Part shown: positions 40,180 to 46,051 of the stretch, piece after piece
How positions within the stretch are numbered: position 1 is the stretch's first letter
Layout: each line of letters starts with the position of its first letter
From: Tardiphaga sp. P9-11
GTDB taxonomy: Bacteria > Pseudomonadota > Alphaproteobacteria > Rhizobiales > Xanthobacteraceae
Length of the DNA: 64,000 nucleotides
Reading direction: 5' to 3'
Assembly: GCF_008329525.1 (NCBI RefSeq)
Contig: NZ_NPKQ01000005.1
Coordinates: forward strand, 1-64,000
The notes under the pieces: generated by a model
Seen by the model: the letters and a program-made list of their open reading frames with translations, nothing else
Database searches by the model: none
What the model was told of the DNA's origin: nothing
Made by a program: the position numbers and the translations under genes

Positions 40180-41628
40180 TCAGCGCACCAGCACGTTCTT
40201 GAACTGCCACGGATCTGACGTGTCGATATCTTCCGGGAACAGGCCCGGGCGGCCTTCCAGCGGAGTCCAGTCGGTGTAGTAGCCCTTCACCGGGCCGAGA
40301 TACGGTCCCTGGATTTCCAGCAGGCGGTGGAAATCCATTTCGTCGGCCTCGACGATACCTTCGGTCGGGTTCTCCAGCGCCCAGACCATGCCGCCGAGCA
40401 CGGCGGAGGTCACCTGCAAGGCGGTGGCGTTCTGATAGGGGGCCAGTTCACGTGTCTCCTCGATGGAAAGCTGCGAGCCGAACCAGTAGGCGTTTTTGCC
40501 GTGGCCATAGAGAAGGACACCTAGTTCGTCGATGCCATCGATGATCTCCTCCTCTTCGAGGATGTGATGCTTCTCCTGCATCTTGGCGGCGCGGCCGAAC
40601 ATTTCATGCAGCGACAGCACGGCGTCGTCAGCCGGATGGTAGGCGTAGTGGCAGGTCGGCCGGTAGACGGCGGTGCCCGATGCGTCGCGCACCGTGAAAT
40701 AATCGGAGATAGAGATCGACTCGTTATGGGTGACCAGGAAGCCGTATTGCGCGCCACGGGTCGGGCACCAGGTATGTACGCGCGTGTTGGCGCCGGGCTG
40801 CATCAGGTAGATCGCAGCACCACAGCCGGTCTCGTGGGTGTGCGCATTCGCTGGCATCCATTTTTCATGGGTGCCCCAGCCCAGTTCGGACGGCTGCACG
40901 CCTTCCGACAGGAAGCCTTCCACCGACCATGTGTTGACGAACACGTCCGGCTCTTTCGGGTTCTTGGAGCGCTGCGTGTCGCGCTCGGCGATGTGGATGC
41001 CCTTGACGCCGGTCTGGCGCATCAGATCGGCCCATTCGGCCTTGGTCTTCGGCTCCGGCGCATTGAGTTGCAAATCAGCAGCGACGTTCAAGAGCGCCTG
41101 CTTGACGAAGAAGGAGACCATGCCGGGATTGGCGCCGCAGCAGGAGACGGCTGTCGTCGAGCCGGGCGCGCGCGCCTTCTTGGCGGCCAGCGTCGCTTCG
41201 CGCAAAGCATAGTTGGAGCGTGCGGCGGCACCTTTCGAGGCGTCGAAATAGAAACCGAGCCACGGCTCGTTGACGGTGTCGATATAGAGCGCGCCGAGCT
41301 CGTTGCAGAGCTCCATGATGTCCTTCGAGCCGGTATCGACCGAGAGATTGACGCAGAAACCCTGGCCGCCGCCTTCGGTGAGCAGCGGCGTCAGCAGCTC
41401 GCGATAGTTCTCCTTGGTGACGCCCTGCTGGATGAAGCGCACATTGTGCTTCTCGCAATGCGCCTTGCGGCCCTCATCCTTGGGATCGAGCACGGTGATG
41501 CGCGACTTGTCGTAATCGAGGTGTCGCTCGATCAACGGCAGCGTGCCTTTGCCGATCGAGCCGAAGCCGACCATCACGATGGGGCCAGTGATCTTCGCGT
41601 AGATCGGCGAGGCGGGGGATGTGGACAT
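40180..41628 (-). CDS. hss: Homospermidine synthase
   Basis: This 482-aa enzyme joins two putrescine units (or putrescine and spermidine) into homospermidine using bound NAD. The Rossmann motif is MVGFGSIGKGTLPLI (about 19-33); SCCGANPGMVSFFVKQAL (about 162-179) and NEPWLGFYFD, HAYHPADDAVLSLHEMFGR (in parts) match the bacterial enzyme known from Blastochloris viridis. Homospermidine is the main triamine in many rhizobia. The putrescine source is the ornithine decarboxylase at 43633-44775 in the same region; genes between them are on the same strand but separated by gaps of 60 to 270 bp. Confidence 0.95.
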   Translation of the reverse strand: MSTSPASPIYAKITGPIVMVGFGSIGKGTLPLIERHLDYDKSRITVLDPKDEGRKAHCEKHNVRFIQQGVTKENYRELLTPLLTEGGGQGFCVNLSVDTGSKDIMELCNELGALYIDTVNEPWLGFYFDASKGAAARSNYALREATLAAKKARAPGSTTAVSCCGANPGMVSFFVKQALLNVAADLQLNAPEPKTKAEWADLMRQTGVKGIHIAERDTQRSKNPKEPDVFVNTWSVEGFLSEGVQPSELGWGTHEKWMPANAHTHETGCGAAIYLMQPGANTRVHTWCPTRGAQYGFLVTHNESISISDYFTVRDASGTAVYRPTCHYAYHPADDAVLSLHEMFGRAAKMQEKHHILEEEEIIDGIDELGVLLYGHGKNAYWFGSQLSIEETRELAPYQNATALQVTSAVLGGMVWALENPTEGIVEADEMDFHRLLEIQGPYLGPVKGYYTDWTPLEGRPGLFPEDIDTSDPWQFKNVLVR

Positions 41629-42887: not shown

Positions 42888-43484
42888 TCAAGCTGCGTGG
42901 GCCAGATCGGCAGGCTCAACAGCTTTGCGGACCCATTTACCGCTTCCGAAGATGATGCCGCGGGCGCCATCCAGCGCTCCGGGCTTCAGCTCGAGGCCGA
43001 GCAGGCGATCGCGCTCGAACGGCCCCGGCAGCGCCAGATCGGTCATTTTCCGGGGCATGAAGCCGAAGCGGGCGTAATAAGGCGCATCGCCGAGCAGCAC
43101 GATGGCGCCATGGCCGCGCGCCGAGGCCTCGGCGATCGCGTGATTCATCAACGCGGCGCCAAGGCCAAGGTCGCGGGCACCCGGATCGACCGCCAGGGGG
43201 CCGAGCATCAGTGCAGCTCGGCCCCCGGCGTCGACATGCCAAAGCCTGATCGTGCCGACCAGCCTGCCTTGCACCACCGCCGAGAAGGCCAGGCCTTCGG
43301 CGGGCAGTCGTCCGTCACGCAGTCGCTGGCAGGTGCGGGCATGGCGCGAAGCGCCGAAGCACACATCCAGCAGAGATTCACGGGCGGCGACGTCGGAGCC
43401 ACGTTCCGCACGGATCTCGTACGAAGGGGCTGCGATAGGCAGGGCAACAGTGTTGTTAGTGGCGGTCTCGTGCAGATTGGTCAT
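42888..43484 (-). CDS. GNAT-family N-acetyltransferase next to ornithine decarboxylase
   Basis: This 198-aa acetyltransferase has the acetyl-CoA loop LGPLAVDPGARDLGLGAALMNHAIAEA (in parts; about 92-117) and the C-terminal GDAPYYARFGF strand-helix of the YhbS-like branch. It follows the ornithine decarboxylase gene on the same strand after about 150 bp, in which ACTCCG and CGGAGT (43500-43520) form a hairpin near its start. A role in polyamine acetylation is possible from the context, but the acceptor is unknown. Confidence 0.85.
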   Translation of the reverse strand: MTNLHETATNNTVALPIAAPSYEIRAERGSDVAARESLLDVCFGASRHARTCQRLRDGRLPAEGLAFSAVVQGRLVGTIRLWHVDAGGRAALMLGPLAVDPGARDLGLGAALMNHAIAEASARGHGAIVLLGDAPYYARFGFMPRKMTDLALPGPFERDRLLGLELKPGALDGARGIIFGSGKWVRKAVEPADLAHAA

Positions 43485-43632: not shown

Positions 43633-44775
43633 TCAGATATGGAAGGTGCGGAGCGGCGGGAAGCCGTTGAACGCCACTGCCGAGTAGGTCGACGTATAGG
43701 CACCGGTGCCTTCGATCAGCAGCTTGTCGCCGATCTCGAGAGTCACGGGCAGCGGATACGGCAGCTTCTCATACATCACATCGGCCGAATCGCAGGTCGG
43801 GCCGGCGAGCACGCAGGGCGTCATCTCGGCGCCGTCATGCGGCGTCTTGATGGCGTAGCGGATCGACTCGTCCATCGTCTCGGCGAGACCGCCGAACTTG
43901 CCGATGTCCAGGTACACCCAGCGCACTTCGTCCTCGTCGCTCTTCTTCGATATCAGCACGACTTCGGCTTCGATGATGCCGGCATTGCCGACCATGCCGC
44001 GACCCGGCTCGATGATGGTCTCCGGGATCGCGTTGCCGAAGTGCTTGCGCAGCGCACGGAAGATCGAACGGCCGTACTGCACGACCGCCGGGACCTCCTT
44101 GAGGTACTTGGTTGGGAAGCCGCCGCCCATGTTGACCATGGACAGGTTGATCCCGCGCTCGGCGCAGTCACGGAACACCGACGAGGCCATCGCCAGCGCA
44201 CGGTCCCATGCCTTCACCTTGCGCTGCTGCGAGCCGACATGGAACGAAATGCCATAGGGCTCCAGGCCAAGACGCTTGGCGAGGTCGAGCACGTCGACAG
44301 CCATTTCCGGATCGCAGCCGAACTTGCGCGACAGCGGCCACTCGGCGCCGGCGCAATCGTAGAGGATGCGGCAGAACACGCGGGCGCCAGGAGCAGCGCG
44401 CGCGATCTTCTCGACCTCAGCGGCGCAGTCGACCGAGAACAGGCCGATGCCGAGCGCGTGGGCGCGCGCGATGTCGCGTTCCTTCTTGATGGTGTTGCCG
44501 AAGGAGATGCGGTCCGGCGTGGCGCCAGCAGCGAGCGCCATCTGGATTTCCTGCACCGACGCGCAGTCGAAGCACGAGCCCATCGAGGCCAGCAGCGACA
44601 GCACTTCCGGCGCCGGGTTTGCCTTCACCGCGTAGAACACGCGGCTGTCGGGCAAAGCCTTCGCAAAGCTCTGGAAGTTGTCGCGCACGACTTCGAGATC
44701 GACGACGAGGCACGGCTCGATGTCGCTGCCCTCGTTGCGGCGGGCGCGGAGGAATTCCTGAATACGTTCGGTCAT
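43633..44775 (-). CDS. Ornithine (or lysine/ornithine) decarboxylase, alanine-racemase fold
   Basis: This 380-aa PLP enzyme makes putrescine from ornithine. It has the eukaryotic-like group IV fold: YAVKANP with PLP Lys51, the glycine-rich phosphate site VNMGGGFP, EPGRGMVG, and the second active-site block CDSAD near 325. Start ATG 44775 (MTERIQEFL) has GGGAG upstream; the longer frame to 44835 runs into the leader. Substrate range may include lysine. Product feeds homospermidine synthase nearby. The long conserved-looking leader upstream implies control at the RNA level. Confidence 0.95.
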   Translation of the reverse strand: MTERIQEFLRARRNEGSDIEPCLVVDLEVVRDNFQSFAKALPDSRVFYAVKANPAPEVLSLLASMGSCFDCASVQEIQMALAAGATPDRISFGNTIKKERDIARAHALGIGLFSVDCAAEVEKIARAAPGARVFCRILYDCAGAEWPLSRKFGCDPEMAVDVLDLAKRLGLEPYGISFHVGSQQRKVKAWDRALAMASSVFRDCAERGINLSMVNMGGGFPTKYLKEVPAVVQYGRSIFRALRKHFGNAIPETIIEPGRGMVGNAGIIEAEVVLISKKSDEDEVRWVYLDIGKFGGLAETMDESIRYAIKTPHDGAEMTPCVLAGPTCDSADVMYEKLPYPLPVTLEIGDKLLIEGTGAYTSTYSAVAFNGFPPLRTFHI

Positions 44776-45262
44776 AGCACTCTCCCAAACGGCCCGGCTG
44801 AGGGACACGTTCAAAAAATGATGACGGTTCAGCACTTCCGGACCCAGACACGCGATGGAGGCGTGACAAAGCCAAAAGTACAGACCGTAAGTGCTGCCGT
44901 GGATTGGTTGGGAGTGACCCTACCGCACACCTGGCAATGAAGGACAAGCCTCTTCGGTATTCGCGCTGGCTGTTGGAAAGCCAGCAGAGACCAAAAAAGC
45001 CCGCTCCGTCGTTGCTTTAAGTCGCGTCCCCCGTTGAGAACGAGGTGCGCCGGTTCGCCTCCGGCTGCCAGTCACGGTTGCAAAGAACAAAGTCACCTTC
45101 AACGGCATCTCTGGAGAGAGATGCTGGCCTTTCGCAATATCTCCTTGAACAAGAGATTGGCGAACGACCCTCGGCTTCTTCATCCCTTGGCGGCTGTCCG
45201 GCCTCTTGTCCGGATACCTACCGACTGACACACGACCACAGGCACGTGCGAAATTGGGCAAG
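44776..45262 (-). ncRNA. Structured 5' leader of ornithine decarboxylase (speF-motif-like)
   Basis: Between the probable promoter and the decarboxylase start lies a leader of about 485 nt rich in complementary segments: hairpin GCATCTCT/AGAGATGC (45105-45124), a long-range pair CCGTTGA/TCAACGG (45031-45037 with 45099-45105), and CAGCACTT/AAGTGCTG (44830-44837 with 44889-44896) followed on the minus strand by T6 at 44818-44813. A conserved RNA called the speF motif is known upstream of ornithine decarboxylase genes in Alphaproteobacteria, and place, length and gene fit; I could not align it to the covariance model here. Confidence 0.7.
44920..45183 (-). CDS. Possible leader ORF in the ornithine decarboxylase 5' region
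   Basis: An open frame of 87 codons starts MKKPRVVRQSL at 45183 (AAGGG directly before it) with an internal ATG at 45108 giving a 62-codon version that begins MPLKVTLFF. It contains an Arg cluster (GSRRRTGAPRSQRGTR). The internal ATG lies inside the hairpin 45105-45124. In enterobacteria a leader peptide (SpeFL) senses ornithine to control speF; by analogy this frame might be translated, but codon and ribosome-site support is weak and the RNA structure alone could explain the conservation. Low confidence. Confidence 0.3.
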   Translation of the reverse strand: MKKPRVVRQSLVQGDIAKGQHLSPEMPLKVTLFFATVTGSRRRTGAPRSQRGTRLKATTERAFLVSAGFPTASANTEEACPSLPGVR

Positions 45263-45266
45263 ACCG

Positions 45267-45295
45267 GAAATAGGTTCTTTGACCCTGGGGTGCAA
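45267..45295 (-). promoter_or_regulatory. Candidate promoter of the ornithine decarboxylase leader
   Basis: On the minus strand TTGCAC (45295-45290), a 17-base spacer and TATTTC (45272-45267) make a reasonable housekeeping promoter, with a start site near 45260. Confidence 0.45.
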
Positions 45296-45920: not shown

Positions 45921-46051
45921 AATCTCAAGGTCCTGTTTCGGGCCGCAATCTCTCCGAAAAAGCCTGCTGCGGCAAGCACTAAAGGGCCCAAAAAAGCCCC
46001 ATCGCGTGGTATAGATCGGCGCATTCTATGGGCTTCAAAGCAGGATTTCTT

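Follow-up and report, generated by a model that had tools for sequence, protein, structure and literature searches.

A combined ar45-like and speF leader of an ornithine decarboxylase gene in Tardiphaga: a putative transcription attenuator from a family reaching homospermidine synthase genes

What does the long, structured leader of an ornithine decarboxylase-like gene in Tardiphaga sp. P9-11 do, and how far does its family extend? The window analyzed here is a stretch of 64,000 nt (contig NZ_NPKQ01000005.1, positions 1 to 64,000). The decarboxylase ATG is at 44775, and the leader upstream of it covers about 485 nt, counted from a transcription start that is likely to lie near 45260 as predicted from the promoter hexamers (Table 1). 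The decarboxylase is 99% identical to that of Tardiphaga robiniae, the nearest named relative found, and in two annotated relatives the gene is labelled odc2, ornithine/lysine decarboxylase. The next gene encodes a GNAT protein, and an N-acetyltransferase is found 3′ of the decarboxylase in all three annotated records of relatives. Two further ORFs and then a homospermidine synthase follow. The window synthase is 57% identical over residues 8-468 (E 4e-172) to a synthase encoded at a distant locus, L281, which itself matches homospermidine synthases in the PDB (E 9e-177).

Table 1. Features of the decarboxylase locus and its leader, in window coordinates.
Feature	Position	Strand	Remarks
Promoter	45267..45295	-	-35 TTGCAC 45295-45290, 17 nt, -10 TATTTC 45272-45267
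ar45-like 5′ domain	44993..45259	-	Several stems, closed by the 5′ end of the RNA itself; U6 at the 3′ end; proposed intrinsic terminator
Conserved 5′ strand, GCCCAAUUUCGCACGUGCC	45241..45259	-	GCCC predicted to pair with GGGC 45002-44999
87-codon ORF, judged a chance frame	44920..45183	-	Not conserved as a whole, no codon signature
Conserved 3′ strand	44993..45015	-	GCAACGACG 45015-45007, GGGC 45002-44999, U6 44998-44993
Rfam speF motif RF00518	44841..44986	-	cmscan 71 bits, cut-off 37, E 2.5e-15, model 1-153 of 153
Late stem, overlapping the end of the speF motif	44813..44900	-	Folds at -30.4 kcal/mol; five letters separate it from U6 44818-44813
Ornithine decarboxylase-like gene, 380 aa	43633..44775	-	Pfam PF02784 and PF00278
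GNAT N-acetyltransferase, gene next to the decarboxylase	42888..43484	-	Pfam PF00583
Homospermidine synthase	40180..41628	-	About 2 kb past the decarboxylase end, same strand

One part of the leader belongs to a known RNA family. The speF motif, RF00518, is the sole family of Rfam release 15 above its cut-off in the leader. An earlier note on this DNA had suggested that the leader fits the alphaproteobacterial speF motif and had called for a covariance scan; the scan bears the suggestion out with a match to the full model (71 bits, 44986-44841, E 2.5e-15). The local element has two marks of membership in RF00518: its covariance score exceeds the cut-off, and a gene of the ornithine decarboxylase type lies downstream. 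Under strict filters, matches to RF00518 at E ≤ 0.001 are found in 275/296 genomes of the same family, 205/397 of the order and 15/385 of the class. The passages available from Corbino et al. (2005; PMC1273637) describe an 'extended speF element' before a decarboxylase of the same type. It is conserved from the start site onwards and has a stem whose large insertion possibly makes up a four-stem junction; a conserved block of about 80 nt follows. Compared with that element, the Rfam match in the window spans only the second part of the leader. The same passages do not term the first part a terminator, and distant homologs and homospermidine synthase are absent from them (PMC1273637).

That first part is a separate ar45-like domain that runs for 267 nt, GCCC and U6 included. 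The earlier reading of the leader had overlooked it; the speF part of that reading stood, and its SpeFL-type ORF was not supported (see below). The terminal strands of ar45 (RF02347), GCCC...CGCACGUGCC and GCAACGACG...GGGC with a U tract, are both present in the window, where the conserved strands span 19 nt (5′) and 23 nt (3′). RF02347 matches the domain with 16.6 and 23.4 bits against a cut-off of 40. The match is weak because the conserved ends match but the filling between them is far longer. We therefore treat the local 5′ domain as a relative of ar45 and do not file it as a member of RF02347, given its score below the cut-off.

We gathered 222 sequences, the window and loci L001-L221, of which 220 have a decarboxylase downstream; L068 and L159 are cut short by contig ends and hence lie outside the 220. 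Eighty of the loci (L074-L153) were fetched via the decarboxylase itself and are thus uninformative on gene association, and some other loci are copies of one site. Both conserved strands occur in 215/220 loci. The remaining five comprise four contig ends and L196, which by reading has a variant 5′ strand. The speF block follows the strands in all 215: a pattern finds it in 211, and inspection finds it in the remaining four with one letter changed. The ar45 and speF matches are 6-9 nt apart in the five further genomes, from the order or the family, for which both places were listed. The gap between the two strands ranges from 17 to 268 nt, so it is the paired strands that are conserved and not the filling. 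The tract after GGGC is TTTTTT in 181/215 loci, CTTTCT in 17, and another T- or C-rich tract in the rest. Within Bradyrhizobium, Rhodopseudomonas, Afipia and Tardiphaga the 5′ half is nearly letter-identical save one variable arm, in an alignment that holds only the rows that aligned (L075 left out, L078 misplaced).

The 5′ domain begins directly behind a conserved promoter. The promoter reported in the earlier note, about 485 nt before the decarboxylase, has both hexamers, and TTG-N15-19-TA is kept at its place in 188/189 distinct upstream regions of relatives. The same test shifted by 60, 120 and 180 nt gives 1, 4 and 0 of 213. A generic promoter scan of the window did not detect the promoter at 45295-45267. 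The GCCC of the relatives starts 3-8 nt past the -10 hexamer, which places it near the 5′ end of the RNA.

The segment 45265-44990 folds with -110.1 kcal/mol (z = -2.03), and 3 of 200 shuffles were equally good. When 25 sequences of the window's form are folded together by RNAalifold, 54 pairs result, and 15 of them have both sides changed with pairing kept. This structure bears out the nested complementary segments pointed out earlier, and the hairpin said to enclose an internal ATG (45108) exists. The changed pairs adjoin or lie within the filling (columns 25-255, UA/CG/AU; 34-205, AU/GC; 46-63, UA/GC/CG; and 231-248 to 234-245), and the outer stem is nearly invariant among these 25 sequences. 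Covariation of the closing stem is found at pair 3-107 (CG 10, AU 8) and pair 5-105 (GC 9, CG 7), with a score of 0.187 vs 0.048 shuffled and at most 0.073 slid. Over 141 distinct sequences the best closing stem is GCCC:GGGC in 66, GACGC:GCGUC in 42, CCGUC:GACGG in one, and others in the rest. In the distant forms described below it is mostly GACGC:GCGUC and once CCGUC:GACGG; because these replace GCCC:GGGC, the difference in the outer stem is compensatory. The leaders have one mark of an intrinsic-terminator attenuator, a stem directly before a U tract that is kept by compensatory change; the change lies between groups and hardly within the window's own group.

Swapping the 3′ strands lowers the pairing score from 12.81 to 10.95 over the 141 sequences, where 82.5% of swaps reach the all-native level, and from 13.26 to 12.65 over 58 distant leaders. 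The swaps discriminate less than the slid and shuffled controls, so that support for the stem lies in the differences between groups, which may rest on few events. Across 44 Rhizobiales-type leaders (of 45 chosen, one was skipped), the closing stem is predicted with a mean probability of 0.96. For these 44, the 5′ strand is predicted to be unpaired at 0.64 in RNA lacking the 3′ strand vs 0.42 on average. No conserved competing structure or antiterminator was noticed, the openness of the 5′ strand being what was computed for this. The inner letters of the conserved strands are invariant, and the inner stem as drawn has a mean probability of only 0.08; covariation backs the filling's own stems and the outer GCCC:GGGC stem, and no others. 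A terminator scan of the window, limited to local hairpins (no more than two letters from stem to tract, loops of 3-8), found no terminator at the 5′ domain. A short GCCC...GGGC-TTTTTT stem like the outer stem of the element also occurs elsewhere in the window (45980-46033, minus strand; 15.5 bits, E 0.012). It lacks the inner conserved strands and is perhaps an ordinary terminator.

The 5′ domain occurs well beyond the genomes with RF00518 matches. A core model built from 16 short forms (R1) matches 32/385 genomes of the class at E ≤ 0.01, including places before ornithine decarboxylase genes without an RF00518 match; weak R1 matches at L246, L248, L251, L256 and L257 were judged to be chance by inspection. 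A second core model (R2), in which nine distant forms were included, matches 74/385 class genomes at E ≤ 0.05 and, by count of the matches listed, 64/385 at E ≤ 0.001; the E-values of both models are rough. The same 385 genomes thus hold 15 with RF00518 vs 64 with the R2 core, and 10 of the 64 are among those 15. The five RF00518 genomes outside the 64, the window's own included, have longer fillings. On longer fillings R2 is weak for G361, G070 and G189 (E 0.014-0.031) and misses G000 and G283. Rfam models run on 20 of the distant loci gave no leader match at E ≤ 0.1.

We read 63 distinct leaders that have both conserved strands among loci L238-L319; they come from 52 genomes, 51 of them in the 64. 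The leader precedes ornithine-decarboxylase-type genes or homospermidine synthase in 59/63 cases. A decarboxylase like that of the window is found downstream of 35 leaders and a second decarboxylase type downstream of nine. Eight more have the second type followed by homospermidine synthase, three have homospermidine synthase followed by a decarboxylase, two have a decarboxylase followed by homospermidine synthase, and two have homospermidine synthase alone within the flank. Homospermidine synthases other than that of L281 were placed by tblastn with the L281 protein (63-89% identical). The four leaders with none of these genes include L287 and L299, which stop at contig ends. At L311 the leader, which is of the distant type, is followed by an ORF (404-1288) that looks on inspection like a class-I glutamine amidotransferase; neither a decarboxylase nor a homospermidine synthase lies in the 2.6 kb read. 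The leader at L290 precedes a 136-aa ORF without an assigned name. Judged from these matches, the family extends past what Rfam records and includes leaders of homospermidine synthase genes. Two single loci are worth recording. A weak R1 match at L255 (861-1000, genome G036) just before an ornithine decarboxylase gene carries GCAACGACGTAGAGGGC and a GCGTGCC strand, and is possibly a further divergent member of the family. An RNase P RNA (RF00010, 304.7 bits; L305 766-1172, minus strand, genome G380) lies in the stretch around a distant leader.

What follows the 5′ domain varies. In Rhizobiales and some others it is the speF motif, and a speF-like motif follows the leaders of L238, L239, L265 and L268 in the distant set. 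Distant forms typically have a hairpin and then a ribosome site (e.g., GAGAGGGAGGU) with an ATG, which opens a short ORF where the speF motif is missing. The frame is a separate ORF in 44 leaders and runs in frame into the decarboxylase in ten; the 44 exclude these ten fusions, the four speF-like leaders, and L244, L290, L291, L299 and L311. The rule for picking start codons required a ribosome-site-like string, so the ribosome sites at these ORFs are partly there by construction. This module is absent from the window leader, which has the speF motif at that place.

An Arg-stop ending is not enriched among the ORFs of the distant leaders (13/44 vs a background of 66/287, 23%; p 0.19). It occurs in 11/17 ORFs of up to 16 codons (p = 3e-4), with a cut chosen post hoc and several close kin among them, and the excess is only a lead. 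These Arg-stop ORFs of 11-16 codons (L245, L254, L281, L283, L284, L287, L292, L295, L297, L314, L316) sit past the terminator and a ribosome-site-like string, before decarboxylase-type or homospermidine synthase genes; L287 ends before any gene. SpeFL, the leader peptide of the enterobacterial speF leader, also ends in Arg. Longer leader ORFs at L269, L272, L274-L277, L280 and L317 have common C-terminal patterns, SSMRAPD or GR-x-NPLSS, which may reflect conservation of peptide or of RNA. At L271, L273, L278, L282, L288, L289, L304, L305, L313 and L319 the start codon picked in the leader is in frame with the decarboxylase and would give it an N-terminal extension, often Arg-rich.

Conservation, architecture, compensatory changes in the closing stem and gene association are observed in these leaders, and we think that the ar45-speF leader is probably one cis-acting transcription attenuator of the decarboxylase operon. 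Transcription would start just before GCCC. The RNA would fold into the multi-stem domain, with its 5′ strand more open until its partner is made. When the polymerase reaches the end of the domain, the 5′ GCCC would pair with the GGGC before U6 and form an intrinsic terminator, so that the 5′ end of the RNA would build the terminator of its own transcript. On modelling, the terminator looks set to form either by default or with help. The RNA set free by termination there would be about 267 nt long and represent the local 'ar45 sRNA', and read-through would enter the speF motif and then the decarboxylase. A signal of polyamine sufficiency would strengthen termination, polyamine being suggested by the downstream genes. 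The conserved strands within the stem are the likely site for the signal, which at its simplest could be homospermidine or another polyamine on CGCACGUGCC and GCAACGACG inside the stem. Putrescine and homospermidine are the only soluble polyamines of most nitrogen-fixing rhizobia, according to the passages available from PMC13293326. We regard it as a conceivable, if unlikely, extension that the 5′ domain is the common part of an unrecognised, class-wide family of polyamine-responsive attenuators, possibly a new homospermidine riboswitch class with its sensing site inside the terminator stem formed by the two ends of the leader's 5′ domain. The family would control decarboxylase and homospermidine synthase genes across Alphaproteobacteria and carry interchangeable downstream modules, either the speF motif, as in Rhizobiales, or a short leader ORF with its ribosome site.

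Published data on related RNAs bear on this proposal, and for each paper we draw on the passages available. In S. meliloti strain Ak57, the stretch that begins with GCCC and closes with the T tract measures 150 nt. This length fits the 148 nt of the deep-sequenced S. meliloti RNA SmelC706, which is listed with RF00518 (PMC2873474), and not the 181 nt given in 2007, for which the start was mapped and the U run assumed (PMC2780559). Also in favor of the proposal, a short RNA of its own represents ar45 in Bartonella, and a speF probe detects a transcript of more than 700 nt (PMC7717549). Corbino et al. found no binding when they tested ornithine, lysine, meso-diaminopimelate, putrescine, cadaverine and spermidine, and homospermidine is absent from the compounds that the passages list (PMC1273637). 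Their in-line-probing construct, of A. tumefaciens, spans -400 to +3 (PMC1273637). GCCC lies 408-436 nt before the aligned decarboxylase start in the 19 listed loci of family f196 (Rhizobiaceae by inference), where the true ATG may sit a few letters upstream of the aligned start. From these distances the construct might lack part of the 5′ strand; a S. meliloti record with GCCC only 394 nt before the annotated start speaks against this.

Against an attenuator stands the co-precipitation of S. meliloti SmrC45 with Hfq (PMC2848018), a finding also compatible with an sRNA that acts in trans. ar45 might then be an independent Hfq-bound sRNA with its own promoter and a constitutive terminator, the speF motif being a separate leader and the decarboxylase being read by leakage past ar45 or from another promoter. 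Expression and Hfq binding of ar45 in S. meliloti (PMC2873474, PMC2848018) and its description in Bartonella as expressed independently of the speF leader (PMC7717549), all from passages of these papers, agree with such an sRNA. We consider it rather unlikely: the ar45-like and speF elements are contiguous in 215/220 loci, and relatives of the 5′ domain stand before decarboxylase or homospermidine synthase genes in 59/63 leaders despite a differing downstream module. The window scan also found no promoter between the elements, although it missed the conserved upstream promoter as well. A variant of the attenuator in which termination is set by a protein, a tRNA or some other trans factor on the conserved strands, in place of a small molecule, is doubtful but a real possibility. 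Conserved strands of 19 and 23 nt are in keeping with such a partner, as is the absence of binding by six small molecules in the passages of PMC1273637; the gene association instead points to a metabolic signal.

Two further explanations involve translation. The earlier note had proposed that an ORF nested in the leader is translated and senses ornithine or polyamine through ribosome stalling, as with SpeFL. Its 87-codon frame, Arg-rich in part, does exist (45183-44920). In 72 of 120 entries whose decarboxylase is at least 85% identical (the window and L001, its copy, among them), the frame that starts at ATG 45108 stays open as far as the conserved 3′ strand. Distant relatives of the 5′ domain also have short ORFs with good ribosome sites, which lends the idea some color. 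The proposal did not hold up in the same 120 entries, where the stop is common to only five (the window, L001, and the near-identical loci L040, L073 and L074). Among the 25 closest relatives only the window and its copy have ATG 45183 in an open frame, and the inner-ATG frames of the 72 entries end at many differing places. Variable columns number 6, 11 and 12 at codon positions 1, 2 and 3 (70 ungapped relatives), so second-position changes are about as frequent as third, and paired stems account for the conserved letters. The RNA is structured, and the 87-codon ORF in it appears to have arisen by chance; we rejected it as a leader peptide, and sensing by a stalled ribosome is very improbable here. 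The other explanation is that the speF motif pairs with the decarboxylase ribosome site and hides it. CUCCCAA in the window motif could indeed pair with UUGGGAG before the start, but over 197 leaders native motif and site pairs (-22.67 kcal/mol) are no more stable than swapped ones (-22.46 kcal/mol). We set this pairing aside and regard translational control by it as improbable.

A second terminator was also considered and left out. The late stem followed by U6 that the earlier note described is present (-30.4 kcal/mol), with five letters between stem and tract. The terminator scan of the window did not report it, and a run of at least five T occurs at its place in 49/120 close relatives.

The speF motif has been without a known mechanism since 2005 in the literature examined, which was seen in part. 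Reading the leader as one attenuator, together with the wider core and the link to homospermidine synthase, turns an orphan motif into a testable proposal, in which the triamine usual in rhizobia would feed back on the pathway that makes it. A further implication is that an annotated 'sRNA' may be a terminated leader. In a literature search of titles, the starts of abstracts and passages, with preprints and most subscription papers outside it, we recognised none proposing that ar45 is the attenuated leader of the decarboxylase and none placing an ar45 or speF RNA before homospermidine synthase.

Several known systems resemble the one proposed. The enterobacterial speF leader with SpeFL is a long leader controlling ornithine decarboxylase. 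The window shares the gene and the long leader, and differs in that no leader ORF is conserved among its relatives. The spermidine riboswitch, a variant of SAM-I (PMC10853860), would be a further case of RNA-based control of polyamine synthesis if the window element senses a polyamine. It is a different RNA, no SAM family being above its cut-off in the window, and the words speF and homospermidine were not found in the available text of that paper. With rnTrpL and RZ/RA1 of S. meliloti, a leader bearing a terminator yields an sRNA (passages of PMC10117765 and PMC9373788). An attenuator-derived sRNA from a leader is likewise proposed for the window, which differs in having neither a conserved leader ORF nor a match to a SAM family in Rfam. 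A further relative is ar45/SmrC45 (RF02347) itself, with the same 5′ strand, the same 3′ strand and U tract, and the same place before a speF motif. The window form is 267 nt long with a large multi-stem filling, compared with 148 for the Rfam model, and is read here as a terminated leader, not as a separate gene. A 2008 paper reports in the passages available that the speF element was also found as the candidate independent sRNA smrC45 (PMC2573895), and passages of later papers either keep ar45 and speF apart or describe ar45 as an sRNA whose role is unclear (PMC7717549, PMC12403871). Thus, the leader belongs to a known family and is given a new reading, with ar45 and speF as one attenuator and the local form as an expanded variant.
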